DNA of 64,000 bases from Stentor roeselii. Lineage: Eukaryota; Ciliophora; Heterotrichea; Heterotrichida; Stentoridae. The stretch covers positions 62,001 through 126,000 of the forward strand of contig RSEH01000083.1 of the NCBI GenBank assembly GCA_006503475.1. Direction: 5' to 3'. The translations under genes and the position numbers were made by a program. Each line of letters starts with the position of its first letter. Within the stretch, counting starts at the first letter, position 1. This document shows positions 11,833 to 44,700 of this stretch, one piece after another. The notes beneath the pieces are model-generated. The model was not told the origin of the DNA and searched no databases. It worked only from the letters and a program-made list of their open reading frames with translations.

Positions 11833-12426
11833 ATGCAAGAAATAATAGATAGCATCTTCGATATGCTAAAAAAGGTTTCTAGTTTACCAGAAAATTATGA
11901 GCTCAGTCAAGAGTTTCAAACTTTACTGTTAAGAATAAAAAACCAAGCATTCTGTATGCAAGGCTTACTTGAAGATATAAGACTGCAAAATTCTCAACAG
12001 TTTCAAAATATGGTAAATTCTTTCCTTGACATTCAAAAAGATATTAAAGTGCATGAATTGGTAAAATTAACTATAAGTCTAATAATACCAATAATATTGA
12101 AAGATCAAAAAATAATTGACTCTTTAAAATATCGTCCAGTTAATTGTTCTAATAATATAGTTACCGCGTTTTATAAATCTGAAGAATACATTGATGAAAG
12201 GTTTAGGCTGGCTGAAGAGAATCCTCAAGAATATATCAGACAAGGAAGATTTGACATCCATGGATTACACCCAGGGCAAAAAGGTAACTACAATGAACTC
12301 TATGCAAGAGAATATCAGTCTGATTTGAGAAATCCGGTGAATGAAATTAATCAACGAGGAGGATATCCACCTGAAATTGATGGAGTTAAGTATTTCGATT
12401 CGCTTTTTAAACGAGGGAATAAGTAA
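11833..12426 (+). CDS. Lineage-specific tandem family protein, copy A
   Basis: A 197-residue helical protein, clearly homologous along its length to the 12671 gene. Shared blocks are MQEII(D/E)SI, (K/R)NQAFCMQG, a VxELVK helix, and the best-conserved stretch NPQEYIRQGRFDIHG followed by a Gly-rich, probably disordered tail. No known domain, signal peptide or membrane segment is seen. Its Met corresponds to residue 17 of copy B; upstream codons still encode a similar peptide but run into a stop, so the original start may have been lost or an upstream exon missed. Function unknown. Confidence 0.7.
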   Translation: MQEIIDSIFDMLKKVSSLPENYELSQEFQTLLLRIKNQAFCMQGLLEDIRLQNSQQFQNMVNSFLDIQKDIKVHELVKLTISLIIPIILKDQKIIDSLKYRPVNCSNNIVTAFYKSEEYIDERFRLAEENPQEYIRQGRFDIHGLHPGQKGNYNELYAREYQSDLRNPVNEINQRGGYPPEIDGVKYFDSLFKRGNK

Positions 12427-12670: not shown

Positions 12671-13297
12671 ATGCCTCGAAATTCTAAACAGCAAGCTTCG
12701 CTAAAAGAATTTGTTCCTATGCAAGAAATCATAGAAAGCATTTATGAGATGCTGAAACGTGTAGCATCTTTGCAAAAAAACAACATAGAAGATCCTGAAT
12801 TCCAAACTTTACTATCTAGAATCAGAAATCAAGCCTTTTGTATGCAAGGAATTCTTACAGATGAAAGAATGAAGAAATCCTTACAATTTAAAAACATGCT
12901 AAACTATTTTCATGAAATTCAAAATGATGGCAAAGTCAATGAACTGGTCAAAGTTTGCATAAATCAAATAATTCCGATATTCTGCAATCAACATGATATC
13001 AATGAATATATGAAATATTCACCAATACATCCATCAAGCCATATAATATCATCATTTTATAAATCACAGAATTACATTGAGGAAAGACATAGATTAGCTG
13101 AACAGAATCCTCAAGAATATATAAGACAAGGAAGATTTGATATTCATGGTGTAAGTCCAGGACGAAAACCAAACTTTAGTGATTTATATAATGACCAAAA
13201 GATTAATGCAAATGTTAATGATCATTTTAGAGGATCATATAAAGATGATAGATTCTCAACATCAAGTGGTGCTTACGGTAGTCATTACAAAAAGTAG
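12671..13297 (+). CDS. Lineage-specific tandem family protein, copy B
   Basis: A 208-residue paralogue of the gene at 11833, 244 bp downstream on the same strand. It has an extra basic N-terminus (16 residues, with KEFVP) before the shared MQEII block. The conserved core ends with NPQEYIRQGRFDIHG, after which a polar, Gly/Ser/Tyr-rich tail diverges completely from copy A. Conservation of the core with divergence of the tail and the spacer argues that both copies are under selection. Function unknown. Confidence 0.75.
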   Translation: MPRNSKQQASLKEFVPMQEIIESIYEMLKRVASLQKNNIEDPEFQTLLSRIRNQAFCMQGILTDERMKKSLQFKNMLNYFHEIQNDGKVNELVKVCINQIIPIFCNQHDINEYMKYSPIHPSSHIISSFYKSQNYIEERHRLAEQNPQEYIRQGRFDIHGVSPGRKPNFSDLYNDQKINANVNDHFRGSYKDDRFSTSSGAYGSHYKK

Positions 13298-14199: not shown

Positions 14200-15901
14200 T
14201 TAATAACTAAGACAGCATCCAGAAATAGTCAAATTTACTTTTTTCTTCCCATTTAATTCTGAAAAACCACATGAGCACTCTGATGATTTAATATCACTAA
14301 AACTCTCTTTAACATGATCTGAATGACAAATCTCTGAGCACTGATAAAAAACAACAACATTTCCATCATAATCTAACGAATCACTACAAGTAACACATTT
14401 AAAACCCTCAACTTTTTGTCGACTCTTGAAACCCTTGGAGCACTGATTGACATGTTTCAAACTCCCACAAGCGCATTTAACCTCCTTATTTTCCTCAATT
14501 CCAAAATTAACAAACTTAATATGATGTTTTTGATGATGAACCTGACAACAATAAGCACAAATAGGGATCTGACTATTGCCCCAGCAAGTAACACAATAAA
14601 AATGACTCTGAACGAAAGGATCCTTAAAAACATCAGCAGAACATTTTTGATTCCCATAAAAAAACCTTATCTTTTCAATATCAAGTTTAGAGAGTTTCTT
14701 GACATTATTGATAATTATTGCCTTTGAACAATCTCTTATCTTCGAGCAAGCTGGCAGATGCATAACAGAGTTTTTATCATAAGGGCCATAAAAGTTGTTT
14801 TTGATGATAATCAAATTAGATGAAAGAGAATTTTCTTGATATTCTCTCGGAAAATTGTTGGAAAACAGATAACAGTAAAAATCTTTTTTATCTTTTGACA
14901 TGGACTGATGAGTGAAACCGATCACATGCATCAAGATATGCAAAACTGCTGGTTTCGATGTTCGAGATGGAAAAACGACGAGATTTTTCCCTGTACCTTC
15001 CGACAGGGACTTCGACTTCAGCTTCTAACTTTGAGTTGATGTGAAATTCTACAAAATCTTGGTCTTCAGGTTTTGACTCAACAAACCTTATGACTTTGCT
15101 TTTATTGAATATTTTTAATGAACTCGTCAGAGACTCCATAGTGACTCGATCAAGTTTTAACTCAGAAGTGAAAGTAAAAGGAATTTTACCTCCAGGCCAT
15201 CTTGTCGGCAAGTACTCAAAGACCAGGCCTTGATCTAAGGTTTCGAAGGAATCAGGAAATTTATAAGTTTTTAATAAAAAATCTTTATAATCATTCATTA
15301 TTGAATTCACAAAGCCTAGTTTCAAGTTTGTCTTTTTCACTGTGATTTCAATTAAAGTCGGTTTAATTATGATGTTTTGGATTCCTTTTTGAAACTTGTT
15401 TATAAATAGTTCTACAGATTTTCTTGGTTCTATAGGAACTGAGTTTCTAATCTCGTTTTCTTCGACGTTAAAAACGTTTTCTTCTACGTTAAAAACGTTT
15501 TCTTCGTTAGTTAATTGAAATTTGTCGATTGATTGTCTAGATTCTTCAATTATTCTGTTACTTGGAAGGCGATTGATTTGATTTTCAACTGATTCGCATT
15601 TGTTTTCAACAAAATCTTTGGGATTATCTGGGTTTAGGGTTGAAAACATATGATTTTTTTCATATCCTGATGAATGAATGGTTGAATTAAGTGATATTAA
15701 TTCTTTTTTTATCAGAGAATCGAGTCTAGTGAAAAGAAAGTTTTTTGGAATTTCTGGAACTTTGTCTGTGCGATCTGGGCAACTTTTAAATGTTATTTCT
15801 TGGAAATCTTCGGTTTTGAAATGATGTTTTTTTAAGGTTTCCTTGAGTTTTAGTCTTTTTGCAGGAGATCTGATAAGGAAATTTCGCTTTGAAGCATCCA
15901 T
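14200..15901 (-). pseudogene. Pseudo-astacin/UBR-box family member with a frameshift
   Basis: Two overlapping frames together span a full family member. The upstream frame (15901 to ~14990) holds the disordered N-terminus and the first half of the astacin-like domain (RWPGGKIPFTF, then VPVGRY). The downstream frame holds PAVLHILMHVIGFTHQ, the SVMHL Met-turn and both UBR-box fingers to the normal end (SGCCLSY). Against the intact paralogue, where TACCCAGGGG encodes YPG, this copy reads TACAGGG: about two bases are missing near 14990-14993. No 15-nt GT-AG intron explains it. It may be a recent pseudogene, an assembly error or a frameshifted product. As in its relatives, the Glu of HExxH is replaced (here by Ile). 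An imperfect short duplication (NVEENVF twice) lies in the N-terminus. Confidence 0.75.
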
Positions 15902-16197
15902 TTTATTATTCTATATTTTGGGTAATTTTACTGAAAGAGAGTTTAAGTTTAGCTGAAATTTTGATTTCAGTTTAATATAATGGGAAATAGCTATTCAAAT
16001 CTTTTTACAATATTGAAATAAGGTTTAATTTTGAGTAGTATGATAGAAAATAAGAAAGGATTTCTACCTAGAATTTCAGAGTCAATGTACTAACAAAACA
16101 ATTACAAATTTAATGAGATAATGATGCTCTAATCTTAGAAGATTCTTACAGGCTATTAACATAAATAGTAATTTCTTTAAGGTTATTCGATATAAAA

Positions 16198-17607
16198 ATG
16201 TCTGATGATTTTAAAGAATCGATTAGATCACCTATCCAAAATAGGATCATAGGAAATGAAGAGTCTAAAAAACAAAAGCTAGATAAGTTCCAACATCAGC
16301 TAAGCATCATTTCAATTCTCGAAAACTCTACCCTAAACCCTCAAAAATCAAAAATGAAATACGATTCACAACAAAAGTTATCACCTCTCTCTAAAATTAA
16401 TAAATTTAAAAGAAACTCACTAGATCCAATCATACCCGTAGCCTTCCAACCAGACTCCCTGATAAAAAACACGATAATATCAGTGATCCGAAACTCAATC
16501 CTAACAATCACAGTGAAACTTCCAAACGGTACAAACAAAACAATAATAAACACTTTCAGTCCAAACCGAGAAGTTTTAGGTATCTCTTCATTCAGCAGAT
16601 CATTCAAAATCTTCGACAAAGGCGAGTTTTACGAGCTTTTTCCAATGAGATGGATAAGAGGGCAGGTTTTTTTTGAGTTAAGTCCAAGATTCCAAAGCAG
16701 AGAAAATAAAAAGTTGAGTCAAATTTTAAAGGATTGCATGGAAGACCTCAATAAAAGAACTTACGTGAAGTTCATTGAGAAGAAAAAAGAAGTTGATGAT
16801 TTTGTTTTCTTTGACATTGATGATGAAATCAGTGTTTTTATTGGAAGATACCCTGGAAAAAATGAAGTGAAAATATCATCGAAATCTACTAGTGGACATA
16901 TTTATCATAATTTGATGCATATTCTTGGATTTGTTCATGAAACAAAGCCATCAAATTCCAGGCCTCTCGGGTATTACTCAATAAATAACATCCCGCCTTA
17001 TTGTCGAGAAGGAGTTGAAATGCTTAAATTTACATGTGAAGATACTTTAGGACCTTATGATGAAGACTCTGTTATCCACTCTAATGCCTGCATTGGTCAG
17101 ACACAAGATCCTTTAAGAAAGTTGAGATTTAAAGAAAAGCCTTCAAAACTAGACATCATGAAAATTAATTTTTTTTATGGAAATAGGCATTGCACTTTCG
17201 ATTATTATAAAATTCCTTATTTTCAAACGCACTTTAATTGCATTGACTGCTGGGGCACTTCAAAGTTTCCCATTTGCATGTTTTGTAAAGAATTTCATCA
17301 TAAAGGTCATCAACTCATAAAAGTTGATTATTCTGTCTCTCCATCTGTTGAATGCTTTTGTGGAAAATATGAACATCAAATGAAATGCTCTTGTTATTTG
17401 AACAAGGGAGTAATGGTCAATGCTGGAAGATGCTTAACTTGCAATCATTCGAAGTGTAATGATGGAAATGCTGATTGGATTGTTTGTTTCAGGTGTGAAG
17501 AAGTTTGTCATAAAGGACATGAGATTGAAAATGTTGGGGAAATTGAAGGGACTGAATGTCTATGTGGAAAAGTTGGAACTTTGGTTAGTTGTTATTTGAA
17601 GAAATAA
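16198..17607 (+). CDS. Pseudo-astacin metallopeptidase-like domain fused to two UBR boxes
   Basis: A 469-residue protein. Residues 1-~110 are polar and probably disordered, without a signal peptide. Residues ~150-335 follow the astacin (M12A) plan: RWIRGQVFFEL (usual RWPxGxIPY), the zinc motif H237-N-L-M-H241-ILGF-V-H247-E, and a Met-turn-like SVIHSN. The general-base Glu after the first His is Asn, so zinc could still bind but peptidase activity is not expected. Residues ~340-405 and ~410-462 are two Cys/His fingers with UBR-box spacing (first: CxxC, CMFC, HHKGH, CFCG; second: CxxC, CFRC, CHKGH, CLCG). UBR boxes read N-terminal residues of proteins. It is the only plus-strand member of the cluster, and the architecture is unfamiliar to me. 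Confidence 0.8.
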   Translation: MSDDFKESIRSPIQNRIIGNEESKKQKLDKFQHQLSIISILENSTLNPQKSKMKYDSQQKLSPLSKINKFKRNSLDPIIPVAFQPDSLIKNTIISVIRNSILTITVKLPNGTNKTIINTFSPNREVLGISSFSRSFKIFDKGEFYELFPMRWIRGQVFFELSPRFQSRENKKLSQILKDCMEDLNKRTYVKFIEKKKEVDDFVFFDIDDEISVFIGRYPGKNEVKISSKSTSGHIYHNLMHILGFVHETKPSNSRPLGYYSINNIPPYCREGVEMLKFTCEDTLGPYDEDSVIHSNACIGQTQDPLRKLRFKEKPSKLDIMKINFFYGNRHCTFDYYKIPYFQTHFNCIDCWGTSKFPICMFCKEFHHKGHQLIKVDYSVSPSVECFCGKYEHQMKCSCYLNKGVMVNAGRCLTCNHSKCNDGNADWIVCFRCEEVCHKGHEIENVGEIEGTECLCGKVGTLVSCYLKK

Positions 17608-17711
17608 CTTAGATAGAATTTTAGCTTTTATTAGGATTATGAAAGTTTTGAGAATTTGAAGATTATTTATAGAGAATTATTATTGTGAAACTAATTATTT
17701 AACGATCTTTA

Positions 17712-19340
17712 TCATGAAGTAAGAAAACATCCAGAAATAGTTAAAATTTTCAGATTTTTCTTTTGTTTTTCTGGAAGTGTGTCACATCCACAACTTTTTG
17801 CATCAATTTCTCCAGCATCCTTAACATTATGATTTGAATGGCATGTTTCCTTACACAGAAAACAAACAATCACATCATTTCCATCAGAAAACTCTTTACA
17901 AGTATCACAGTTAAATCCTCTAATCTTAAAATTTCCTTTTAAAAACTTGGCACATTTAGTAACATGTTTCAAAACACCACATCCACATTTGACTTCTTTA
18001 TTTCCCGCTATTCCAAAATTAACATATTCAAGTTCATGCCCTTGATGATGTATCTCGGCACAATAAACACAAATAGGGACTCCACAGTCATGCCAACAAG
18101 TTTTACAATAATAATGACTTTGAATGAAAGGTTTTTTAAAGAAATCCCCAGTACATTTTTGAGGTCCATAAAAAAACTTAATTTTTTTTATGTCTAAATC
18201 TGAAAGTTTCTTAATATTTTGTATTATTTCCTTATTTGAGCATTCTTTTATCTGTGAACAAGCTGGAAGATGTAAGACTGAGCAAGGGTCATAAGGACCG
18301 TAAAAGTTGCTATTAAGTAATATTGGATCAGATGATTTTGAGTCTTCTTGGGATTCTCTTGGAAAGTTGCTGGGATATAAGTAACAGTAAAAGTTTTTTT
18401 TATCATTTGACATTAACTGGTGGGTGAAACCGAGAATATGCATCAAAATATGTAAAACTGCTGGTTTTGATAAATCTTTTGGAAGTATGACCTGGTTTTC
18501 CCCTGGGTACCTGCCGACAGGCACCAGAACCTGAGAGGAGATATTTAAATCGATATCAAACATGACAAAATCTCTATCATTCAAATATTTATTCTCGATG
18601 CAAAAAAATTCTACAACTTTCAACTTATTGAATACTTCAAAACACTCCTGAAGAGTTTGCAGGGTTTTTTTATTGTTTTTTAGCTCACGTGAGATAAAAC
18701 AAGGAATTTTTCCTCCAATCCATCTGGTAGGCAAGTATTCAAAAATCAATCCTTTATCTAAAATCTCGAAAGTACTTTTAAGCTTAGAAGATCTGAACAA
18801 GGTTTTATTATTTTCGTTCCCAATTAACTCTAGCTTTAATTGTTTTCTCCCCGAGTTTTTGAAGCTTATATTGATTAAAACTGGTTTTATCATGTTACTG
18901 AGACCTGATATGAAATCGTTCCTGAAACCCTTAGGACAGTTTTCATTAAATGAAGCAGCCTCTTTCGATTCCTCTTGATTGATCTTATCTTCATCTTCGT
19001 AATTTTTTAAAGCGATTTCTTGATATTTATCCGGGTTTACTTGAAAATTATTGTATATGCGGTTACTTAAGACACGAGATATCTGGTCTTTGCTTGTTGA
19101 GATTCTTTCTGAGATTTCAATTGGATAATTTTCTTGAATTCGACTAGAATTTGGGAAAATTTTGTTCTTTGGTAGTCCATTGTGCAGTTTTTTTTTTGAT
19201 AGCACAGGCTTGGATCTAGAAGTATTGAGAAACTTATTGTTGAAGGGTTTATCTTTCGTTATTTCGAATTCTCGGAAATTTTCAGTTTTTAAAGCGGTTT
19301 TTCTTGGAAGTATATAAGGTAAGTGGAATGAATCAGACAT
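17712..19340 (-). CDS. Pseudo-astacin/UBR-box protein, intact long copy
   Basis: A 542-residue paralogue of the 16198 gene. The disordered N-terminus is longer (~1-165). The astacin-like core starts about residue 175, with RWIGGKIPCF near 206, VPVGRYPGENQ before the zinc motif, then H297-I-L-M-H301-ILGF-T-H307-Q, and SVLHL in the Met-turn position. The catalytic Glu is Ile, and the Glu after the third His is Gln. Two UBR-box fingers follow (~395-460 and ~470-525), ending in SGCFLTS like the 14200 copy. No secretion signal is seen, so an intracellular role is inferred. Convergent with the 16198 gene (104 bp apart). Confidence 0.8.
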   Translation of the reverse strand: MSDSFHLPYILPRKTALKTENFREFEITKDKPFNNKFLNTSRSKPVLSKKKLHNGLPKNKIFPNSSRIQENYPIEISERISTSKDQISRVLSNRIYNNFQVNPDKYQEIALKNYEDEDKINQEESKEAASFNENCPKGFRNDFISGLSNMIKPVLINISFKNSGRKQLKLELIGNENNKTLFRSSKLKSTFEILDKGLIFEYLPTRWIGGKIPCFISRELKNNKKTLQTLQECFEVFNKLKVVEFFCIENKYLNDRDFVMFDIDLNISSQVLVPVGRYPGENQVILPKDLSKPAVLHILMHILGFTHQLMSNDKKNFYCYLYPSNFPRESQEDSKSSDPILLNSNFYGPYDPCSVLHLPACSQIKECSNKEIIQNIKKLSDLDIKKIKFFYGPQKCTGDFFKKPFIQSHYYCKTCWHDCGVPICVYCAEIHHQGHELEYVNFGIAGNKEVKCGCGVLKHVTKCAKFLKGNFKIRGFNCDTCKEFSDGNDVIVCFLCKETCHSNHNVKDAGEIDAKSCGCDTLPEKQKKNLKILTISGCFLTS

Positions 19341-19489
19341 TTTCTATATTTATTCATTTTTGTGGAAAATTATGCTTGGATTAGTAATATGGTTGTTTAG
19401 GATCTAAATGAATTTTATTTGGATACAATTTATGTGTTTGAGATTTATATTTAGCATTTGCATGAGACAGCAGAGATCAGATCAAATAT

Positions 19490-19775
19490 TTCAAGCTGAT
19501 GATCAATATCCAAAGTTTTATATCACATTGCACAAGCAAAACCTCCTTATTATCCCCACCAATCTTACTACAAGTTTTTTCCCTTAAACGTTTCATTCTT
19601 ATAATTTTTTGGTAAATAAACATAGCACAACTTCAAATGTTAAAATTCCTACAGACGCAAAGCATTTCATTTACATTCAATCCAGCATTGATTTTCCTGA
19701 ACTCATGGCCCTTGTGATGTACTTCAAAGCAAAAGCATATTGCTATCTCCTCAGTAAGAGTTGTAATAAAAGAAT
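19490..19775 (-). pseudogene. Fossil of a fourth pseudo-astacin/UBR gene (UBR-box part only)
   Basis: On the minus strand, ~19765-19645 translates to IAICFCFEVHHKGHEF and then MLCVC, matching VPICVYCAEIHHQGHEL and the CGCG segment of the first UBR box. Lower coordinates (~19590-19490) keep traces of the second finger (CSKIGGDNKEVLLVQCD) but in shifted frames with stops. No astacin part could be traced with confidence. It is a truncated old copy in the same orientation as the 17712 gene. Confidence 0.7.
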
Positions 19776-19987
19776 TGATCATCTCTAGAGATTTATCTAA
19801 GACTTTTCAGGTGATAGCTCTTTTAAGATCAAAAGTTATCCAAATAGGAATTATTCCTCTTATACAACGAGTTTTTTGATAATATAAGGGAATTCTTCTA
19901 AGATTTTGAATGAAGAAGGGGAATTCAGTTCATTAATCACTTCTAACTTCTGATTCCTAAAGGCTTTTTACTCAAGTTATCTGTTAT

Positions 19988-20115
19988 CTTGACCAAAAGG
20001 CAGGCGATTTTCGAGAGATATCAGAAATTTTTCATGAAGAGCTCTACTAATTTGACCAAAAGGCAGGCGATTTTCGAGAGATATCAGAAATTTTTCCATG
20101 AAGAGCTCTACTAAT
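19988..20115. repeat. Tandem duplication, two 63-64 bp units
   Basis: Two adjacent copies of a ~63-base unit (beginning TTGACCAAAAGGCAGGCGAT and ending GAGCTCTACTAAT) differ only by one inserted C in the second copy. This is a very recent tandem duplication within the non-coding zone next to the UBR fossil. Neither copy is in an open frame. Confidence 0.9.
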
Positions 20116-20896: not shown

Positions 20897-21877
20897 TTAA
20901 TCCTGAGTGATCTCCGTCTTCAAATTGCAAAACAATAGTTCATGTAAACTAAAATCCAGCAATTTATTCCATTTAATCATGCACAAACCATCATGATTCC
21001 CTAGAAAACAACATTTAAAATCAAATCTTTTCATTAACTCATCCTCATTTCGATTTTCAAATTCACTGAAAACAAATAAGTTAAACGATTCCAAATAAAC
21101 ACTAACAGAAAAAAGCTGAGCAACGAACTTGTTATTAAAAGTATTTTCTATTCCTTGCTTTTTATTATTTTCTCCTCGGTATTGAGCTTCAGTTTTAGGT
21201 CCAGTGGCAGTATCAGCGATTTTTTCAAGTAAAATCCGGTTGTCTTGGTAATGATTTAAAAAATATTTTAAATATGGGTTTCTAGTTGCATCTACAAATT
21301 GAAATTTTTCAGCTTTTCTAAGCAATTTCTTCCAAGCTCGAATGAGTTTAGTTCTGTAATATTCTTTTTTAGGAGAAGACCTTATTTTTTTCTTGGCTTT
21401 TCCATTTTTCGCTTTTTTCATTTTTGAATCAGGATTATCTATAAACTCCAGTAAAGGGTTATGAAGTCTTCGGGTGGACATTTTGGAATTAGTATAAAAG
21501 TTGTGATTGTTAAATGCCTCTCTTGACTCATTTACCCTCATCTCTGGAATCTGGGTATAGAAATAAGGGTTTCCCATGTTTTCCTCTGTTGGCTCGATTT
21601 CGTCGATTCTCTTTTGGAAGTCGTTTAATGGTAAAGGGTCTTGTTCTTCGATTATTCTTAAGTTTTCGTTGGAAATGTCGGGAAGGTTAAAGTCAAAGTC
21701 CTGCTTTTTTTCTTTTTTCGGACTTTCTTCAAAAATATTCAAAGGGTTTTCTTGTGATGAACGCGGAGATGAGGAAAGGCTGTTGAAGGTCTCTTGGTAT
21801 AAAAAATTGTTGTCTTGGTCGCTGGAAGACTGGAATTCGAAGATTGGATGAGGTGGGTTTTGGCTTGGGAATAGCAT
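20897..21877 (-). CDS. Unknown protein with disordered N-terminus and basic core
   Basis: A 326-residue protein. Residues 1-~150 are polar and Ser/Pro/Glu-rich; a strongly basic segment (~153-190; KKAKNGKAKKKIRSSPKK) could be a nuclear localisation or nucleic-acid-binding signal. The C-terminal ~140 residues look folded, with helices such as TKLIRAWKKLLRKAEKF and a hydrophobic end. No known domain recognised. The ATG is 53 bp from the PIG-P start's upstream side on the same strand. The 5' flank (21900-21990) is G-rich on the plus strand, like other minus-strand promoters here. Confidence 0.7.
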   Translation of the reverse strand: MLFPSQNPPHPIFEFQSSSDQDNNFLYQETFNSLSSSPRSSQENPLNIFEESPKKEKKQDFDFNLPDISNENLRIIEEQDPLPLNDFQKRIDEIEPTEENMGNPYFYTQIPEMRVNESREAFNNHNFYTNSKMSTRRLHNPLLEFIDNPDSKMKKAKNGKAKKKIRSSPKKEYYRTKLIRAWKKLLRKAEKFQFVDATRNPYLKYFLNHYQDNRILLEKIADTATGPKTEAQYRGENNKKQGIENTFNNKFVAQLFSVSVYLESFNLFVFSEFENRNEDELMKRFDFKCCFLGNHDGLCMIKWNKLLDFSLHELLFCNLKTEITQD

Positions 21878-23513: not shown

Positions 23514-26500
23514 CTAATCATTCTCTTCCCATCCAGCACCAGCGGAGCCATCAAGGTCGATTGCTGTGCAATGAGTGATCGCGTAAGTCAACTTCTGCCT
23601 CATTGCTTCCTTGCTGGTATACGCGGGTAAGTCCAGTGTGAAAAAGCAGGTATGACTGATCGGCATGTAGTTGTTAACAGGGCCAGAAGGATTATACCTC
23701 GTCACCTTCATATGTCTCCAGTCTTTCCCTGAAGGAAGTCTCTTACGTCCCCAAACGAACTTCAAGAATAAAGACCTTTCAATTTGACTAAATTCTTTCA
23801 AAACTTCCCAAAAGTACTGAATATGTTGATCAGAAAGTCCACATCCTTCATAATCAGTATTTTCTTTCAAGATATCAACATCTACATCAGCTGTTCCACA
23901 AACCAAGGTCTCCACCTGTCTCCAAGAAAACAAGTTCAACAAGTCAATCTGAACAACTACGCTGATCCCTTCACGAATTCGAGCTATTGCCTTGTCACAT
24001 TCACCAAGACGAGCTTTTAACATCAAGTCTGCATATTTTCCACAGTTCTCAAAAGTAACACTTAAATCTTTCCCTCCAGGTACTAACTCAACATCTTTAC
24101 CTGAAGAGTCTTTTGTGACGAATTTTTCATCATAAGCCATTGAAAAGTTCTCAGCAGTTAACTCATGTGCTGCAGGATTTTTCAACATTTCAATTATTTG
24201 CACAGTGCACACGTCAACTCCTCTTAAATCCGCGGCACTTACCGGCTCATGGACTAATTTTTTCCAAAACAACGGGGCGAAGCTAAGGCCGAGGTTGTTC
24301 TGAGTACGAATAGCGGCGCCCATCAATTTTCCAAGAAAAGTAAAAAGTTCGAAATCAGTTTGAGAAGTCGCTGAAGGGTTGATGGTCCAAGCCTCTCTGT
24401 TCTCGCCCATGTTTCCAGCGTGGTTGGCAGTAGGAAGCAGAAGATGCAAGAAAGAAGACTGAAGTTCATCAACTATGTTTGACATGGACTCGTTGTAAGG
24501 TCCTCCCGCGTCGATCGAGGCTTCGCCTCGATAGTTAATTTTATAAATCCTTTCCGAGTTGCGGTACCCGTTGTTGGTGACAGCTGACATTGCCCGGAAG
24601 ATCTGCCCAGTGATCGAGAACTGAGCTTCTGTGTCGACTTCTTTGCGGTTTCGATGTCTTGCAGCTTTTGGCCTGTCAATAGTGAATTCAGTTCTTATTT
24701 CTGACTTTGAGGTTTCCAGAGCTTTTTTAAGCATTGAGTTCTTGTAAGAGAAAAAGATGAAATTTCTACAGGATAAGAGAACTTTCTGCATGTCTGTTAA
24801 TTGGTCAGAAATTTTCAGGTCGAACAGGTAAAGCACTTCTTCTACTCGCTTGTTGAAGTCTTGTAGAACTGAAAATAAGGATTTTATTGAGTCTTTGCTC
24901 ATTTTTTCAAGTTCTGGGTAAAAGACCAGCTCTGATTCTGTTGGGTCTACTTCTTCTACTGGTAATGTCAGAGGGTCTTTTGACTTTGAAGCTGCTAATC
25001 GGTCGATGTAAGTCACTAGCTCTTCACTTGCTGATGATTTAAATGCCCCGACCATCTTATCGCGAAAAGCAAGCCATTCTGCTTTGAAGTCTTCTGGAGA
25101 GGTTGAAAGAAAAGTTGTCACTGCTTCGAAGGACCTGCCTTTGAAATGTGGAGTGACTTTTAATTTGAAACCTGTTTCAGTTGATGAGTCTTCTGAGTCT
25201 ATTGTCAGCAGGTCGAGATCTGACGGTTTTCCTGGGACTAGTGTCATGGAACTGGTGTTTTCATGCAAAATTACAACGAATTTTAAGGGAAAAACTGAGA
25301 GTTTTTCTGAGAGTTTTTGTGATTCTTTGTCGTTTATTGAAAAAGTAATGGAGTTTTGAACTGTGTCGACGAGACAACCGATTAGGTCTCCTTCAGTCCA
25401 GAGAGATGAGGAGAAGAGGATCCAGGAGTCATTTATGTTCTTTTCGAGGACTGAAGCACTGGGAGCGACTCCGAAGTCACATCGGCCCTTGACCCACCTG
25501 ACCTGAGTATAAAACCTTCCACTATTGATCAAGTTAGTCAAAGGAACAATGACTGTCTGCTCAGTCTTATTACTTGCAGTGAGCCGGTCAGCACTAACCG
25601 ACTCATCAACAGCACTATCAAAGAAGTACTGATTCTTCGCAGAGGCATTAACAGGGAACCTCAAATAAGCAGTATCTCCAGCAACATTCACAATTTTATC
25701 CTCAATCTTCCCTCCCTTTACCCTCTCAACTCTTCTCAACACAACAAACTGATTACTTCCTCCAAAGCTAGCTCCCATAAGAACACTTTCCGCAATATTT
25801 CTAAAAGTCCATACCTCGAGGTTATTCTTAAAGCAAACAATAGTTTTATTGTAAGTATTAACAACAAAGTTCAAAACATCTCCATTTTCATAAGGAACAT
25901 TTCCATTATCTGATCCTTTTTCATTAAATTCTCCAGATTTTTTCCAGGTCCAGACCCTTTGACTATGAGAATTATTAAGACAAGCCGACAGGTCATAGTT
26001 GTTATTTTCATTAGACTCAATGAACCCTATATACAAATAAGCCGAGTCTCCAACACTTTCAACGAAGACAGTCACTGAAAAAATCCCTTTTTCCAGACGA
26101 AGATTTGAAAAAGTATTCCCCCAGCTTGAAGAACTTGTTCGAGTCACTCTTACTCCAGAGGCATCGACATTAACATCAGGGCCTTTTTGGTCCCAAGCTG
26201 CAAGAAGCGTGTTTTGCCCTTCTTCTTGTTCAGCGTCTTGCTCACCTTTCTCATCTTTCGAGATGTGAACTGTGTGACGTTCTTCAGCCCTTGAGTCTTT
26301 TGAGAACTCTAAAGTTAAAGAATGAGCACCTTGCACGTTTATTTTAGAAAGATTTGTTTTTAACTTGTAAGGATGTTCTGATTCAAGATCTTTTTCTAGA
26401 ACGTTTTTCGCCTTTTTCTTGAAAGTTTCGAATAGAAATAGGTCGAGATTCTCGTTTTTAAAGGCAAGGCCGTGCATATCATGCAAAAGGTCTGAAAGGT

Positions 26501-29500
26501 CTAAAAACCAGTTCTCGTCAACTGAGAGCTTTCCACAGGAATGTGCTTTAGACAGCAGTAAAACTAAAGACTGAAGAATATTCGAGCTTTTTCTTTCTGG
26601 CTTCGTCAGTTTAAACAACTTTCCAGCAGTTTTCACGAAACTTTGAAGTACTCGAGAATGCAAAGGAGAAGAACCTTGTTCAAAGAGATTTTTCATAACT
26701 TCTAAAAGTTTAGTTTTTTCATCATTTTTCTGAGAAATTTGTAAAAAGAGGTAAAAAGGAGCTAAGACCTTGGAAGATGAAACTTTTCCATTTTTGTCTA
26801 CTTTTTGAAGTACTTTTGTGAGAACTTCAAATAAAGAGTTGCTGTCGATTGAATATTCTGAATCTGAAGCTTTTGAAGCGTTTGTTGGGGTTACTGTGAA
26901 CTTGTATCCCCAGTAGTTTACTGAACCGTCACTGTGGAAGTAAGTGTAAACTGTGTCTCCTGGAACCTCGAAACTTACCCAGGAACTCTCGCCTTGGCCT
27001 GAGAAACATTTCAGTTCTCCTGAACGTCCTGAAGATGAGTAGAATCTTAAAGTGTCGCAACCTGACTCTGTGTAGCATTGACTGTCGAAGTCTATCTTTA
27101 AACCTTTGGCCCCAGGTATCTGAATAACATCATCAATATCCTGACTATTATCATAAGGATGTTTACTTTCAACAAACACCGGTTTCAACCCACGTCCAGC
27201 CGAGCATTCCGAGACATAATCAAGCATCAAAGCCAAGACCTGTACAAAAAACTCATCACTAACTTCCTTATCCTTCAAATAATCCATCCAAGTTTTCAAA
27301 GGTATCAAGTTCAAAACCGTGCGAATAGGTGTCTCAATCACAATTCTTTCCAACAATGCAGGATACCGATTTAAAACCATTGAAAGTAAACCTTTACTTG
27401 AATTCGCTCTCAAACTTTTCTCCATTAAAAACAATTCCTGATACAATTCCATAATTTTCATACTCGAGTACCTTGCGTCAAAGTCGACCTTCGCAGATCC
27501 CAAAGACGACACCTCAACAAGACCATAGTTCGAAGTATGAATAGGAACTTTTTCCAACGGGTAAAAAGTTCCTCCCAGCAGCGAGATTGACTTACTGACA
27601 GCTAAAAACACGTAAAAGTCTTTTTCGTTTTTCCCTGCCAGGTTTATTGCTCGACCTTCCTTATCACAGATCAACTCGAAGCTATTTGGGACTTTTAAGT
27701 TAAACAATGAGCAAGTTTTAATGAAAACAAGGTCTCTTATCGAAGTCTCTTTCCCTGAGTATTGACAGGACTTGGTGAAAAATTCATTTGCTCGCTCCGC
27801 TTCGCCTATTGAAAGGTTCCCGATTGACTCACCTCCTGAGTTTTCAACGATAAACAACTCTTGAATGATTTTTTTGTCTTTTTCAGTTGAAGTTGTCTTA
27901 AAAGCAAGGATTTTCGAGTTGGGTAAGGAAAAGTCGACTTTTGAAAGGTTTTCGAGGAAGGGAACGACTGTGAAATCTGTGGGAACTGATGAAAGTGACT
28001 CGAACATTGATACTTCTGAAATGCTTTGGTCGGGGAAGTCGAAAGCGGTCTCTGGAAGTTCTGGGTCGAAGTGGGTGAAAGAGTAGTTTATTGCTTCTGG
28101 AAGGGTTTTCGTTGATTTCAGACAGGATTCTGCTTGTTCTTCTGAAATTCCAAGAAGACGTAATTTTGATTTTTCAATATTTTCCGCGGTTATCTTTACT
28201 TTTACTGACCTTTCTCCGCCTTCCATCTTGGCAGGGGGGTCGACTTTACCTGAAAACTTGTCAGAAACGACCCCATCAAAGACATCCAAAGAAACCAGGC
28301 TTAAAAATGTCCCTTTTTCCAAATACAAAGAACAGTCTTCAATAGAAATTCCATTAAACAGGTCCACCCCTTCAACCACAACATTTTCATTACTACTCTC
28401 TGAAAAAACAGTCACTTTTCCACCAGCTTCAGCAAGAATCCTCAAAACAACGAGTTCAAAGTTAGCAAAATTCAAATTTCCTTCATTATTCACCCTGATC
28501 TGGTTTTCTTCAGCTTCAAGATGCAAGTTTCCGACTTTAAACCCGAAGTGAGTCGCTTTGGATTGAAGGACTAGTCTTAAAGTGACTTGATTCACAAAAC
28601 GATTTGATTGACTGAAAAGATTTGATGGGAAGTTGAAAGAAAAAGACTTGAATGAGTTGGTTGAGTCTTTTATGACGAGATGTGAAGAACTGTTTTGGTA
28701 GATCTCGGCTGAACCATGCACGTCTGTTATTTTAAGAGATGATTCATCTAGTGAGAAAAGTTTGAAGACTTGTGTCACGACGGGTTCTTCTATGTAATTA
28801 ACGACTTCCTCGTAGGTTTTCATGTTTTTCAAGAAACATTTGTAAGTCCAGATCTCCCCAGCGCCTTTTTCAATAATTTCATGATATTTCAACTTATCTT
28901 CTTCGCTGAAACTCTCTACTTTTCCCTTAACTTCTTCGATTTTCAGCTCTTCATTGTCCTCTACAAGTTGTTTCAAAGATTTTTCAATGAATTCCGCACA
29001 TTTCAGGTACCCTTGTTTAGAAACCTCTCCAGAGCCTTTAGTAAGAGGTGAGAGAATCTTGCATAAAACATCAGCTTTTTCCAAAGAAAGTTCAGTAAAC
29101 TCCAGAAACTTCCGAAGACTTTCAAGCACCGAAGTCTGTAACGACAAGTAAAGAGTTTTCAACGTCGCAGCACTTTCCATAGCCTTAAAAAATCGAGTTC
29201 TTGCAAGAGCATCAAAAACATCGACTAAAAAATTGAGAACTTTTTCATTTTCATTCTCAAACCACAGCTTCAAGTTAATTTTACTTAAAGGAACCGAGTT
29301 GACAATTTTATCAATTTCAACAGTGATGACAGTATCATCTAAAATAGAATAAACCTTGAAACTCGTCTTACTTACCTCACAAGTGACAACTCCAACAGAA
29401 AAACTGCAGTCTTTCAACTCGACAACAGCCAAGACAAAAGGAGGAACTCCGAAACTTTCACTAAACGAGAGAAGTCTCAAAGTTCCAGCATGAGCGGCTT

Positions 29501-32500
29501 TGATTGTTAAACCTTTTGACAGAAATTCTAAAGTTTCAGTTAAATTTTCCTGAAGTTTCTTTACCACCTCTCCTCTCCACCTTTCAGAAGCCAGAAGTTC
29601 AGTTAATAGATTTTGACTTTCATAGCTTAAAACGTGTTCTTCACTTGACCATACAGTTTTTCCAATGTTTTTTAATAACTGGTCGCTAATCGATGCACAA
29701 AACTGGGAACCATCCATGAAATCCTTCCAAATCTGCTCAAAGGACTGAGGAGAATGCTGTGCAGGAAGGATTTTACTTAAAAGTCTCATTGAAATCGTTT
29801 GAATCGCAAGAGAATCACTAGAAAAAGCGAATTTCAGCAGAAGTTTCACCTTTGCCTCAGAAGCCAGAGCTGAGGATGACTGGTACTGAGTGAAAGCTCC
29901 GTATAAGGTCCATAAAAGAGATGCTGTGAAGTCTCTTCTGCTTTTTTTTATTTCGGTCAGGCCTGATAGACTTTGTGGAATTTCTTCGAAATGCTTGAAA
30001 AAATCGTAGAGTTCTTTTTTATATGACTCGAAACGATCCACTGAACGAATCGCGTTTAAGGCTATGTAAAGGTCGAGATTCTCGCTTGGGTCTTTGAACT
30101 CAGCTGGAATTGTTTCAGGAAGTTTTGATTTTGGAATTAGACCTGATGTGCCTTGGAATAGAGAAAGAATGTCTTTGAATGAATTTTCGCTTTCAGGGAT
30201 TAGGTACTTTTCGAGATTGGATATCAAGGTTTCTGCGTTTAGAGGGTCAGAATAGCTGACATCGGGTAATGAGAAAAGGTCTGGATTTGAGGATAAGAAG
30301 GAGTCTAGAGACTCGGATTTTGAGGGGAGTGAACCGACTTGCCTCATAAACACAGGAAGACTAACACTTCGATCTTCAGCAATATCTCCAAACTTTTCAA
30401 GCATTTCCGCATCCAACTTTCCACTTCCCACCAAAAGCGGGTCAACTTTTTCCTGATACATCTGAGCAACAACAACCACTTCATTAGGCGCATTCAAATC
30501 ATTCAAATTAGCAAACCACAATTCAGCAGGATTCATCTTAAAATACGAAAACCTGAATTTATCAATCCAACTTTCACCAACACTCAAATTCTGCAAAACA
30601 AGTTGATGCAAGTCAAGTCCCTGAGCGCATTCAAATTTTTCCAATTCACTAAAAATCACATTTAAAACCCCTTCCTGAACACATAAAGTCTGATTTCTAT
30701 TACTTTCTTCATTTTCCCCAAGAACATAAAAAACGAGTTGTTTATACAAATTCCAGCATTTTTGACTAAGTTTTTGTTTAAGTTTAGCAAGCTGGTCCTT
30801 TTCAGTCTGACTAGGAGGTGCCAGTAGTTGAGAGTAAGACGTGAAAGTAGGAACCAGGTCATTCGCGATGCCAGTCAAGTACTTCTGCCCTTCTTTCACC
30901 TCCTCTCTTCTGATCGCAATCCACTTATTTGCCCCGTTGAACGAGAACTGCCCTAAAGCGTCTTCAAGTTCTCCGACATCGGCTTCATTATCAAGGACTT
31001 TAAACTCAACAATAGGCAGCTCTTCGCCGCCCTTATCAAAGACTAGATGCTGTGAAGGTTGCCCTTCAAGTGCTTCTAAGACAAGACTTTCTTTGTAGTT
31101 AGAGAGCAGCTCTTGAGTTACTTTTCCAAGACGAGTGATGCAGTTTTCTTTTAAGAATTTACGGGAAAGAGGCTTTTGCTTTATCTGCCCTTTGGACCAG
31201 TCGAGAAGGACTTTAAGTGCAGGAAGAAGGGGCTGGTCTAGCAACATGTGAGTGTCTGGACTGTGAAGAGGAATGCTTAGGGCTTCGATTACTGATAAAA
31301 AGTGGATGTAGGTCGAGTATGAAAACTCTTTTCGGTGGAAACGAGTCAAGTTTCGTTGAAGGTTTGAGTAGACTTGGAAATAAGAACTTTGAACTACTTG
31401 CATTAGACTTGGGTCTACTCCTTCTAGACCTTCACTGTAGTGCTTTTTGGAATCTTGAGATGAAAATTCTTCCATGAAGGAAGATACCATGAAGGTGTTT
31501 AGACCTGTTGAACTGCTTAGGAGGTTGGATATTGTTATTAAACCTGCTGCTCTTGACACCGCTCGAGCCCTATTAATCTCAAGAGCTTCAACAACTTTCT
31601 CAAGTGTCAAACCCTGTTCAAGAAATCCATTAACAAGTTCAGCCACCCTACTAAATTCTTTCCCATCTTCATTAACAGGTTGACTATTTAATTTTTTGAC
31701 ACTAACCAAATTCTTCAATCTTCCAACATTTTTAACAGCACTCTGCACAGCTTTCCATTTACTTCCAATTTTCAAGCTTTTTTTCTCAGTCTGTGCAATA
31801 TTGCTCAATAAATTTTTCATAGTTCTAGCGATTCCAATATCCTGCAAGCTTTGTTTATATCCAGTTCCAAGTAAAAACCAACATTTTCTAACAACATCCT
31901 CCGCGATTCCCTTATAAGTGATATCATTATTCCCAGCATCCATCTGTTGTTGTTTATGTTTTTGAGCCCAGACTCGAATATTGCAACTTTGTTTAACAAT
32001 CATCTTGACAGTCGGTCCAGCATTGTTAAGATTTCCGAAAATGTCTTTCATCGTTTCAACCACTTCAAAAAACGCGGTATAAACAGCGAAAATCGCTCTT
32101 TCAGCCTGGTCCAGGTCTTTTCCGCCGATAGAACTTGCGGCACCGACAACAGCACTTTTTTTCTTGAGCATTGTCCAAGATTCACAGATTTTTTCGTTTC
32201 CTTCGATGAGCTGTGTTAAAAAAGAACTATCTGGCAGGTGAGGTTCGAGACTAGAGAAGTTTTTAATGTAGTTCACTAAAGATGCACTTTCAGGAGACTT
32301 ATTGATGAACTTTAAAAGGTCTTTATCAGGTGAGTCTTCATTTTTCACGAAGCAGTCAATGATCGTCATCAAGTTTGGATCTATCGGCGGCAGGGGCTTG
32401 ACAATTAAAGAAGACCGATCAGTGACTCCATATTTAAACAACGGATTTTTCAGCAATTTCGTGACATCTTCATTAACCTCTCCACAAAACCCTCCATTTA

Positions 32501-38636: not shown

Positions 38637-39167
38637 TTATAAGTTATACTTAGCTTTCATTTCTTCTCGACGCTTGTCGGTCTTTGGTGTCACCTCAGGC
38701 ATACTAATAAATTTGCGTTTAGGGTCATTATCATGTTCAAAAGTTCTAAGTTTAAGCGAGTTCCTATAAAAAACCCCCATGAAAAAAGTACAAACCATAA
38801 TGATCGAAGAACACAACAAGCTATACCTAACAGCATTAGCATTTGAAGTTCCTAATTTATTCGAAAGTGACGAGTAGCTAATAATAGCAATAGAAAAAGA
38901 AATCATTGCAGCAGAAATCAACAACAAACACCCACAATAAAAAGTCATTCCTCCAAGCGAGTACTTGCTCTTATGCCCAATAAAGGCGATAATAATAGTA
39001 GCAAGTCCCATGCCAATAAAACTTCCATTGTACCAGCTAAACGAATGGTCCGTGGCCGAGACATAAATCCCAGTGATCATCGTTCCTAGTCCGACTGGGA
39101 TGAGAAAAAGATTAAGAAACCTGAAGAGACAGCTCAAACAACTGTTGCCGTGCACTCGTTCATCCAT
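38637..39167 (-). CDS. Small four-TM membrane protein, copy A
   Basis: A 176-residue protein starting MDERVHGNS; an upstream TTG codon in frame is not needed. Four hydrophobic helices: ~18-42 (FLNLFLIPVGLGTMITGIYV), ~48-70, ~76-102 and ~115-140, followed by a basic 36-residue tail. The layout (short first loop, TM2-TM3 hairpin, short second loop) is reminiscent of tetraspanin-like or claudin-like proteins, but there is no diagnostic motif. It has a closely similar paralogue at 43900, within a duplicated block. Function unknown. Confidence 0.75.
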   Translation of the reverse strand: MDERVHGNSCLSCLFRFLNLFLIPVGLGTMITGIYVSATDHSFSWYNGSFIGMGLATIIIAFIGHKSKYSLGGMTFYCGCLLLISAAMISFSIAIISYSSLSNKLGTSNANAVRYSLLCSSIIMVCTFFMGVFYRNSLKLRTFEHDNDPKRKFISMPEVTPKTDKRREEMKAKYNL

Positions 39168-39193
39168 TTTTACTACAAGATTAGATCCTACAT

Positions 39194-39574
39194 TCAAAAT
39201 ATCCGGGACTTTGGAGGAATTATCAACTCTTCTGATGAACTTTCTATTGACTCTGAAGGAGATTTTAAAAATTCTTCTCGCTTTGGCTCGAAGTAACCGA
39301 TAAACGTCACTTCTTCACCTTCGTTTAAGTAAAATTGAAGGTCTTGGAAAGTACTGAAGAAAAGGTCAAGCTCTTGACTTGGAATTGATTTACTTAGTCT
39401 TGAAAGGAGAAGGTTTTGGTCTTGGAATTTTAGAAAGACTTTGGTTTCCAGCAGGCTTGGTGATGGGGGTAGGGAGGATAGAAGAACTTGGCTTAGTTTT
39501 AGGTAATCTCCTGATGGTCTTAATGTTCGTAAGTCGAGGCACTGGAAAGGGCTGAGGGTGAAAGCGCAGAACAT
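39194..39574 (-). CDS. Free-standing nucleoplasmin-like (NPL) domain protein
   Basis: A 126-residue protein. The pattern MFCAFTLSPFQ, DYLKLSQVLL, TKVFLKFQDQNLLLSRL, LQFYLNEGEEVTFIGYFEP matches the N-terminal nucleoplasmin-like domain of fungal and insect FKBP histone chaperones and of plant HD2 proteins (FWG/FxxxLxPG, LHISQAxL, LCxL, LDLxFxEGEEVxF, GxxxLTGY). A short acidic/Ser-rich tail follows (SESIESSSEELI), without the FKBP domain. Such domains form pentamers that bind histones, so a nuclear chaperone role is inferred. The gene lies 26 bp upstream of the four-TM gene on the same strand. Confidence 0.6.
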   Translation of the reverse strand: MFCAFTLSPFQCLDLRTLRPSGDYLKLSQVLLSSLPPSPSLLETKVFLKFQDQNLLLSRLSKSIPSQELDLFFSTFQDLQFYLNEGEEVTFIGYFEPKREEFLKSPSESIESSSEELIIPPKSRIF

Positions 39575-39721: not shown

Positions 39722-41314
39722 TCAGTCTTTATTTACTGGCTCAATGCTTATACTTCGATCACCTACTTTTGCGATTTCTTCGTAAATCACGGAATCCTCA
39801 TCAGCAGGTCTAACTTCACAAGTAGCTCTTCCTTTCTCATCCAAATTGCAGCACATATTAAAACAATTTTGAAAGCAATTTTTCTCTTCACGTTCATAAC
39901 TAACAAGACTTTCTCCATGCGATACTTTTCCATGTCTACTAAACCTTTCATTAGTAGTTAAATTGAACGCGAAGTTCGTAATTTGAATGAAAACCAACAA
40001 ACTCAGCGGGACTTCAAATAGAAAAGCAGTGAACCCAATGACAACAGCGACAAGTTTAGAAGTTTCAAGTGAAAACGAAATAGTTCCAGGATGATCATTT
40101 TCAGCTCTAATAGTTTCTTCACAAATAAACACTTTAAAAGCAAGAGAAATCCAAGTGGCAACGATAAAAACAAGAAACCATCCCAAATTTTTCCCACCAA
40201 TACAATTATTAACCCAAGGACAATGATGATCATATTTTTCAACACATCGATCACAACACAAGCAATGTCGAGATCGAGCAGGACGATAAATTTTGCAATC
40301 AGGACAAATGAAGTGACTTTCATATTTCTCATAAAGCCTTGCAACACTGACAGGACTAGATTCGATATACCCTGGATTTTTCATACACACGATGATAAAC
40401 AACACAAAAGACAGGACAACAACTGCGAAATAACCCAAACGTGGAAGATGAGAGATATATTGAGACAAACTTCCAACAACCAAGACAGAGCCTCCTCCAT
40501 ACAACAGCAAATAAGTGATAACTGGAAGGTAGTTACTTCGAGGTGGTCTTAAAGGAGCTTTAAACCCGAATTCAGTAAAAATCGAAACAGGTTTCAACAA
40601 TCTCGCAGTTTTTTCATCTCCTTTATCCAAAGCTATATCAACTGGTTTTTTCCCTTTACGGTCTTCAACTGACCTGGAGGCTCCTTTGATCAGCAGAGTT
40701 TTGATTATCTTCGAACACCCAGCAGATGCCGCCAGGTGAAGCGCGGTTTGACCTTCATTATCACCGACGTTCAACAACGACAGGTCCCATCCAAGAAGAA
40801 GTGAAGCGCAAATCTCACTTCCTTGATTCGCTGCCCAATGAAGAGGAGTCCCTCCTTTCAAGTCTTGCACAGTGATACTCACTCCTAAGTCGTAAAAGTA
40901 AGACAAGAGCAAGGCTTGGTTTGATTGAGCAGCGACGTGCATCACTGTCAAACCTTGATTGTTTTTTATGTTTATGTTGCAACCTAACTCTAATAACTTT
41001 TTCGCTATTTTCTATGTAATCGTTACCAACTTTCCTCGGTATGATGCGAAGTGAAGAGCTGTGAATCCGTCGTTGTTGATCTCGTTTACCCAGTCTTGGA
41101 GGAGCGATAACCAAGACTTGTTATTTCGCTTTGTGTAGGTTATTAAAAACTCGAATAGTGAGTAGGATCCTCGAAGACTGGCTGCGTGAAGTGCTGTGTA
41201 ACCTTTGGAGTCTTTGTAGGTGTGAGGTGAAGAATTTTGATGACGGAGGAATTTGTAAATTTCTATTATTTCACTTTTGTATACAAGTTGGATGAAATCC
41301 TGCTCTTCTTGCAT
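39722..41314 (-). CDS. Ankyrin-repeat DHHC palmitoyltransferase (one 15-nt intron)
   Basis: Removing the intron at 41012-41026 joins two frames into 525 residues. Residues ~35-235 hold about five ankyrin repeats (GYTALHAAS, GFTALHFAS, GLTVMHVAA, GGTPLHWAA, GQTALHLAA). Two TM helices (~265-310) precede the zinc-binding cysteine-rich domain, with D357-H-H-C360 as the active site (CPDC, RHCLCC and CPWVNNCIG around it), and two further TMs follow. This is the HIP14/ZDHHC17-type and plant TIP1/yeast Akr1 architecture: S-acylation of cytosolic proteins at Golgi or vesicle membranes. It is the upstream member of a three-gene block that has been duplicated to 43.9-46.4 kb. Confidence 0.92.
41012..41026 (-). 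other. 15-nt intron in the ankyrin-DHHC gene
   Basis: Sense GTAACGATTACATAG, in-frame TAG, A at position 10. Splicing restores an ankyrin repeat (ASYRGKL joined to KIAKKLLELG). Confidence 0.95.
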
Positions 41315-43899: not shown

Positions 43900-44355
43900 T
43901 TAACTATCAACCAATATAGAATAATCAAAAGTTCTAGGTTTCAGCAATTTTCTGTACAAAACCCCAAAAAAAAAAGTAATAACCATAAAAACCGAAAAAC
44001 ATAGCAAGCTATACTTGACAGCATTAGCATTTGAAATTCCTAATTTATTCGAAAGTGACGAGTAGCTAAAAATCGCGATAGAAAAAAAAATCATTGAAAC
44101 AGAAATTAACAACAAGTATAAACAGTAAAAATTCATACCTTTAATCGAGTACCTACTCCTATGCCCAATAAAGGCGACGATAATCGTAGCAAGTCCAATC
44201 CCAATAAAACTTCCGTTATACCAGCTAAAGGACTGGTACATACCCGACAAATAAATACCAGTGATTATCGTTCCTAGTCCTACTGGGATAAGAAAAAGAT
44301 TAAGGAACTTGAATAGAAAGCTCAAGCGGCTGCTGTTTTGAACAAGTTCATCCAT
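43900..44355 (-). CDS. Small four-TM membrane protein, copy B (shortened tail)
   Basis: A 151-residue paralogue of the 38637 gene, still open over all four helices (for example LNLFLIPVGLGTIITGIYLS and SYSSLSNKLG). The last ~25 basic residues of copy A are replaced by a short unrelated end (SILVDS) and an early stop. Its two neighbours in the duplicated block are broken, so this frame may be surviving under selection or may simply not have broken yet. Base substitutions are scattered. Confidence 0.6.
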   Translation of the reverse strand: MDELVQNSSRLSFLFKFLNLFLIPVGLGTIITGIYLSGMYQSFSWYNGSFIGIGLATIIVAFIGHRSRYSIKGMNFYCLYLLLISVSMIFFSIAIFSYSSLSNKLGISNANAVKYSLLCFSVFMVITFFFGVLYRKLLKPRTFDYSILVDS

Positions 44356-44379
44356 TTTTACTACAAGATTAGATCCTAC

Positions 44380-44700
44380 ATCATCATGTCCGAGACTTTG
44401 GAGAAATTATCAACTCCTAGGATGAACTTTCTATTGACTCTAGAGATAATTTTTAGTCATCTACTCGCTTTGGATTAAAGTAACTGATAAACGTCGACCT
44501 TTATTTACTTAGTATTGAAAGCAGAAGGTTTTGATGGGTATCTTGTGTTCGAAAGCTTTCTGATAAATCTAAGATGATAGTCACTTGGGTTATTTTAAGG
44601 AATTTACTGAGGTTCTAAAAGTTCGCAAGTCGAGGCACTGGAAATGGAGAAGTCTGAAAGCGCATAAAAAAATATTAGAGCCGAAAGGATTTATAATTAT
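44380..44700 (-). pseudogene. Decayed copy of the nucleoplasmin-like gene
   Basis: The DNA aligns with 39200-39600: GGAGAAATTATCAACTC near 44400, GTAACTGATAAACGTC near 44485, GCAAGTCGAGGCACTGGAAA near 44625, and the 5' flank up to ~44740. Several indels break the frame, so no NPL protein is encoded. Confidence 0.8.

Follow-up and report, generated by a model that had tools for sequence, protein, structure and literature searches.

Genes joining astacin-type domains without the catalytic glutamate to UBR-type fingers in Stentor roeselii

In a 64,000-nt stretch of the Stentor roeselii contig RSEH01000083.1 (positions 62,001–126,000; hereafter the window, to whose positions all coordinates refer), we identified a cluster of genes that join an astacin-type metalloprotease domain to two UBR-type Cys/His fingers, a finger type of the ubiquitin system with roles in protein quality control. 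The three members of this cluster, here termed copies A, B, and C, keep the zinc-binding His residues of the astacin motif and carry another residue in place of the catalytic Glu. Judged from their sequences, we file them as astacin-fold pseudoenzymes, which would be neither active astacins nor N-recognins. The reading we prefer, and to which we give about an even chance of being correct, is that they are non-cutting binding modules that keep their zinc site, descend from an ancestral astacin-UBR fusion, and act inside the cell.

Domain architecture and motif states of the clustered genes

The cluster (14200–19775) consists of two intact convergent genes (copies B and C), a broken third gene (copy A), and a fossil upstream of copy C; the frames of A, B, and C are open under the standard genetic code. 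Copy B (16198–17607, plus strand) encodes 469 amino acids and copy C (17712–19340, minus strand) encodes 542, both gene models being based on the open reading frame, Pfam matches, and a metagenome counterpart. Their astacin-type domains comprise residues 149–331 of B (16642–17190) and 203–396 of C (18153–18734), each followed by two UBR-type boxes (approximate limits 17191–17586 in B and 17766–18158 in C). Copy A (14200–15901, minus strand) is likewise an astacin-UBR-UBR gene, distributed over a 5′ frame (14888–15901) and a 3′ frame that ends at 14200, with box 1 at 14443–14643 (approximate limits) and box 2 at 14254–14445. The frame break corresponds to a single 2-base deletion relative to C near 14992–14995. 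An intron as its cause was ruled out, because Stentor introns are 15–16 bases long (PMC9505925), while A is just 2 bases shorter than C at this place.

With the Pfam astacin model PF01400, matches beyond the curated threshold were obtained for B (3.3e-12), for C (4e-7), and for the 3′ piece of A (1e-5), whose 5′ piece by itself gave no match. Copy B matches solved astacins with its own sequence at 1.1e-6, and a profile combining four domains of the family (B, the C212 gene, and both modules of the C281 gene, see below) does so at 8.3e-23. The closest matches to the predicted structure of B (residues 135–469), obtained with Foldseek and VIA-align, are astacins as well, the model having been built from 17 aligned rows, among them 11 astacins from bacteria or viral contigs. 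The UBR part of this model is of low confidence and was barely probed by the fold search. A model of copy C from a 7-row alignment had a mean pLDDT of 39.6 and was set aside.

The motif HxxxHxxGxxH occurs three times in the six frames of the window, compared with 0.15 on average over 20 single-base shuffles, and HExxHxxGxxH does not occur there. The zinc sites of the three copies read HILMHVIGFTH in A (14908–14940), HNLMHILGFVH in B (16906–16938), and HILMHILGFTH in C (18420–18452). Zinc-binding His 1–3 are thus present in 3/3 copies, as had been noted by the first-pass annotation of this DNA, and Ile, Asn, and Ile, respectively, take the place of the Glu that is described as required in astacins (PMC9848320). 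The further claim that this Glu is replaced in every copy holds for the window but not for the assembly, in which one domain keeps HExxH (module 1 of C281). Active astacins are also defined by ExxRxDRD after the motif and by a SIMHY Met-turn with a Tyr ligand (PMC9848320). RxDR is found in 0/3 window copies and the family Glu in 1/3 (B). The Met-turn-like segment proposed earlier could be confirmed with its Met in A, but B has Ile and C has Leu at this position, and the zinc-binding Tyr is kept in 0/3 copies. In the outgroup, Glu and Tyr are kept in 10/10 rows; this retention results partly from how the rows were selected, because 6/10 rows were fetched with the patterns of our second viral-contig scan, which name the HE or the Met-turn segment. 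Active astacins have two or three disulfide bonds; one Cys pair examined in this respect is present in 3/11 outgroup rows (L032, L034, and L035) and absent from the aligned copies A, B, and C.

For the fingers, the zf-UBR model PF02207 scored above cut-off in A (2.5e-7, two stretches, with box 2 as the best one) and in C281, and below it in B and C taken singly. The first finger of C is the closest to UBR4 and matches the human UBR4 UBR box at 4.4e-5. Profile-profile comparison with four canonical boxes yielded 4.2e-9 (probability 96) for box 1, represented by A, B, C, and the two C281 boxes, and 4.9e-7 (probability 92.5) for box 2 of A, B, and C. The assembly contains eight zf-UBR matches, of which three that lie below the cut-off (C119, C69, and C107) are outside our 13-box alignment. 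This alignment has seven invariant columns, every one of them Cys or His; one further Cys is absent from box 2 of copy A, and box 1 of A, B, and C shows His in place of one UBR4 Cys. Taken together with the reading frames, the astacin matches in all three copies, and the fold predicted for B, these results bear out the description of the locus as clustered astacin-like genes with tandem UBR boxes, and they supply the profile searches and the metzincin-fold check that the first-pass annotation had proposed.

In UBR4, the amine of the substrate N-terminus is bound by Asp1715 (PMC10687169), and its counterpart in UBR1 is D150 (PMC8346999). Based on the published numbering and our alignment, we read this residue as the D of the CDCG motif of N-recognins. 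It is replaced in 6/6 window boxes, by Ala, Phe, and Gly in box 1 of A (CACG), B (CFCG), and C (CGCG) and by Ser, Leu, and Gly in box 2 (CSCG, CLCG, and CGCD). The Asp is kept by human UBR4, the UBR4-like C446, C34, C38, and module 2 of C281, and it is absent from module 1 of C281 (Leu) and from C56 (Asn). Because of the replacements in all six boxes, gripping of N-termini in the known mode appears unlikely for the window fingers. N-degron binding is not universal among UBR boxes, and contact with proteins has been proposed as an alternative (PMC4506424).

The literature describes astacins as secreted enzymes of the extracellular space (PMC9848320). A signal-peptide-like start was not found in A, B, or C by hydropathy, no dedicated predictor having been used: the maximum over 11 residues near the start is −0.14 to 1.10 in the three copies versus 2.08 to 3.45 in five controls picked by eye (two window proteins that look secreted and three astacins from bacteria). 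A cytosolic location had been part of the earlier inference, and the window proteins are probably intracellular.

The fossil consists of interrupted remains on the minus strand (19450–19881). Its UBR-like piece (19651–19746) is significant in tblastn with C, with E values of 4e-5 against a 1,160-base database and 0.003 against the whole window. The stretch just upstream (∼19774–19881), similar to the beginning of the astacin core, reached only E 0.07 and is not significant, and no zinc motif was found in the fossil. Hence, of the fossil member claimed previously, just the UBR-like part has a significant match. In the assembly, the region 19400–19800 occurs once. A 63-base unit is present twice head-to-tail at 19965–20090, just upstream of the fossil, the two units being 84% alike.

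Astacin relatives in the assembly and beyond

The host assembly comprises 44.4 Mb in 522 contigs and is possibly incomplete, so that the counts given here are lower bounds. PF01400 identifies nine domains in eight genes, five of them in addition to A, B, and C. One of these five is C281 (G000:C281:24203-28132), which encodes 1,310 amino acids with two astacin+UBR modules of one box each. Its module 1 reads HEMMHCLGFSHEHQRADR and keeps the HExxHxxGxxHE site and the Tyr, with Leu in the Met position of the Met-turn. In module 2, none of the three zinc His remains, and the Asp of CDCG is retained; according to the alignment, its box carries Asn in place of one His ligand and lacks the terminal Cys, and for these two reasons module 2 is a weak candidate for a competent N-terminus reader. 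The junction between astacin domain and finger, YG followed by three residues and Cys, is shared by A, B, C, and the two modules of C281. In the vicinity of the C281 gene, a 150-aa frame (L027:6088-6540, minus strand) resembles a ubiquitin-conjugating enzyme by eye.

The four further genes contain one astacin domain each, with Gln (C129, C212, and C505) or Leu (C325) in the Glu column and no UBR box detectable by Pfam. Their frames of 479–552 amino acids all start with MG(A/N/Q) followed by basic stretches, a start that we take to be N-myristoylation-like. Across the assembly, the Glu is lost in 8/9 domains and kept solely in module 1 of C281, and all three zinc His are present in 8/9 domains, including 7/8 of those without Glu. 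For C505, synteny was considered by way of the gene next to the cluster (20897–21877, minus strand), which encodes 326 amino acids without Pfam match; this approach was dropped because the gene has 40 matches in the assembly including itself, mostly to the C-terminal half only.

In a midpoint-rooted tree, in which just some branches reach the starred support level, the nine assembly domains lie on one side of a branch (91/90) versus the ten outgroup rows. The two modules of C281 pair (93/89), and A, B, and C (99/94) join the four UBR-less genes (99/97) at 94/90. The simplest history that we infer from this topology would include one fusion, one loss of the fingers, and disappearance of the Glu on two or more occasions.

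Outside the assembly, protein-database matches at E ≤ 0.001 were limited to near-identical versions of B and C (98%) and of C325 (5/479 residues differ). A database search with module 1 of C281 scored 0/225 candidates; it also missed ordinary astacins, so this outcome tells us little about other ciliates. An initial viral-contig scan with the astacin part of this module gave no relatives among 10 matched stretches, a genome-contig scan gave four relatives among 51, and the second viral-contig scan gave nine among 69. Of these 13 relative loci, 11 entered the structure alignment (L042 and L044 were omitted as short), and 10 were used for the tree and the motif table, from which L043 was also omitted. 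The nine loci of the second scan (L036–L044) are astacin-like sequences in IMG/VR viral contigs, two of them on one 99.9-kb contig, in contrast to a statement that viral astacin sequences are restricted to one reovirus (PMC9848320).

Maintenance, decay, and possible roles

We favour maintained pseudoenzymes over simple decay, although copy A and the fossil make clear that single copies do die. Differences between A and C are mostly silent: over 261 codons, dN is 0.321 and dS 1.19 (ratio ∼0.27), and the 5′ part of 188 codons yields dN 0.541 and dS 1.68. The Ile shared by A and C at the Glu column we take as inherited. Together with the retention of the His in 7/8 Glu-less domains, the dN/dS ratio of this pair argues against simple decay. 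Among the seven domains that lack the Glu and keep the His, 22/171 columns are invariant, and the chance that three named columns all belong to them is 0.0019, if columns are alike. In addition, a JGI metagenome contains 98% identical counterparts of B and C, located on one 3,420-base contig each, whose frames are open and whose zinc His and Glu column are unchanged. Allelic changes of C are concentrated outside the core (8/201 versus 2/341, Fisher p 0.007), but those of B are not (2/148 versus 7/321, p 0.73). Since the core is avoided in C and not in B, we did not use allelic differences as proof of constraint.

According to our preferred reading, the cleft of the astacin domain, closed by zinc and devoid of the general base, would hold a polypeptide without cutting it. 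The two non-canonical UBR fingers may act as protein contacts that help to hold this partner, which would most simply be shared with the intact C281 paralogue. In this way, the window proteins could shield the partner, compete for it, or present it instead of cleaving it.

Several observations weigh against this interpretation. As dS is near saturation for most other pairs, the A:C pair alone is informative, and copy A, one half of it, is itself broken. The fossil beside the genes demonstrates that some copies do decay, and 5/9 allelic changes of B fall within box 2, which may therefore be loosely constrained. With the Met of the Met-turn and the Tyr ligand mostly lost, a working zinc site is not assured; the zinc His are possibly kept for the fold alone, and module 2 of C281 does without all three of them.

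In one alternative, the astacin parts would be structural zinc domains with nothing bound in the former cleft, and the work would fall to the long N-terminal region or to the fingers. Conservation of the zinc His along with core-like W, F, and G columns agrees with what a folding role predicts. However, the regions preceding the astacin domain align poorly between paralogues, and we consider this alternative fairly unlikely.

Neutral leftovers of a once active astacin-UBR protease family, decaying and now functionless, would explain the frame break of copy A and the fossil, as well as the loss of Met-turn and Tyr and the lack of all three His in module 2 of C281. The first-pass annotation had regarded a homologue that keeps HExxH as a sign of plain enzyme decay. 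Such a homologue does exist in module 1 of C281, but a dN well below dS between A and C and the retention of the His oppose this conclusion. It is also difficult to reconcile with B and C being intact in a second sample, with invariant His columns in seven Glu-less domains, and with four paralogues that hold frames of 479–552 amino acids, all starting with MG. We therefore judge neutral decay unlikely.

The first-pass annotation itself had suggested a role as N-degron adaptors or decoys, in which the UBR boxes bind exposed N-termini and the dead astacin fold holds the fragment. The UBR-type fingers that this idea requires are present, most of their zinc ligands are kept, and box 1 of C most resembles in sequence the UBR4 box, which binds type-1 and type-2 N-degrons (PMC10687169). 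The idea is weakened by the loss from all six window boxes of the amine-binding Asp, which C446, C34, and C38 keep, and by the existence of UBR boxes that bind no N-degrons (PMC4506424). Moreover, no RING, HECT, F-box, or similar ligase part was matched by Pfam at E ≤ 10 in B, C, or either piece of A. A role of this kind thus seems quite unlikely for the window proteins. Unusual hydrolases that use the three retained zinc His with another base are very improbable, because the Glu is described as required (PMC9848320), the Tyr is lost in 3/3 window copies, and the variety of residues that the family shows at the Glu site (Ile, Asn, Gln, and Leu) indicates a released constraint.

Returning to non-cutting binding modules, their ancestor may have been a "cut and hold" device, an intracellular astacin with a UBR box that cut a cytosolic target and captured the fresh end, with the window proteins as descendants that no longer cut but continue to bind the same targets. 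We regard this scenario as unlikely, too. It is suggestive that the two jobs seem to be split in C281, module 1 having the cutting motif without the Asp and module 2 the Asp without the cutting motif. If true, "cut and hold" would place one branch of the astacins, a family described as extracellular, inside the cell. The family bears on the question whether a protease was ever combined with an N-terminus reader in a single polypeptide, and its one intact and eight Glu-less domains together provide a natural series on the uses of a metalloprotease fold after cutting stops.

Neighbouring genes and comparison with known systems

Some features of the window stand apart from the cluster. Two tandem similar genes, the first without Pfam match, are located on the plus strand (11833–12426 and 12671–13297; 59% over 165 amino acids), and a duplicated pair is found on the minus strand at 38640–39314 and 43903–44406 (74% identity over 154 amino acids). 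A single open frame of 3,940 amino acids (23514–35336, minus strand) has an end resembling a HECT ubiquitin ligase by eye. Candidate 15-base introns were observed at 37206, 50179, and 50523 (plus strand) and at 41026 (minus strand), and in 4/4 cases position 10, where the branchpoint usually lies in Stentor (PMC9505925), is an A. Like the standard-code reading frames, this agrees with Stentor as the source, although lengths of 15 and 16 were not enriched relative to others in an intron-length scan of the window.

The pairing of astacin and UBR domains, which the first-pass annotation did not know from elsewhere, is already on record and not new, since the legend to Figure 1 of Gomis-Ruth and Stocker 2023 lists ZF-UBR among the astacin-associated domains (PMC9848320). 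These proteins share the domain pair with ours; for them, the legend names neither species nor active-site state, and the terms "inactive", "ciliat", and "Stentor" are absent from its main text. According to the same source, fewer than 400 astacin sequences are found outside Holozoa, Alveolata included, and horizontal transfer is suggested. A description of a pseudoenzyme branch of astacin-UBR proteins was not found in our searches of the openly licensed PMC literature.

With the astacins proper (M12A; crayfish astacin, BMP1, and meprins), the window proteins have in common the fold, the three zinc His, the Gly of HxxxHxxGxxH, and the Ser that opens the Met-turn. They differ in the loss of catalytic Glu, RxDR, and Tyr, in a start unlike a signal peptide, and in the attached UBR-type fingers. 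A comparable state is known from ADAM pseudopeptidases that lose the Glu of HExxH, of which ADAM7 (HQLGH) and ADAM29 (HHLGH) keep the zinc His (PMC11266112). These two are M12 metallopeptidases like the window proteins in this respect; however, they are transmembrane proteins of another M12 branch, contain disintegrin domains, and retain the Met of the Met-turn. The UBR box of UBR4 (8j9r; PMC10687169) shares the Cys/His pattern and is the best sequence match of box 1 of C, whereas the window boxes lack the amine-binding Asp, have His for one Cys in box 1, form a tandem pair, and come without a detected ligase part. Domain order and junction are the same in C281, which differs from the window proteins by its two modules with one box each, the first with HExxHxxGxxHE and Tyr and the second with the Asp of CDCG and no zinc His.

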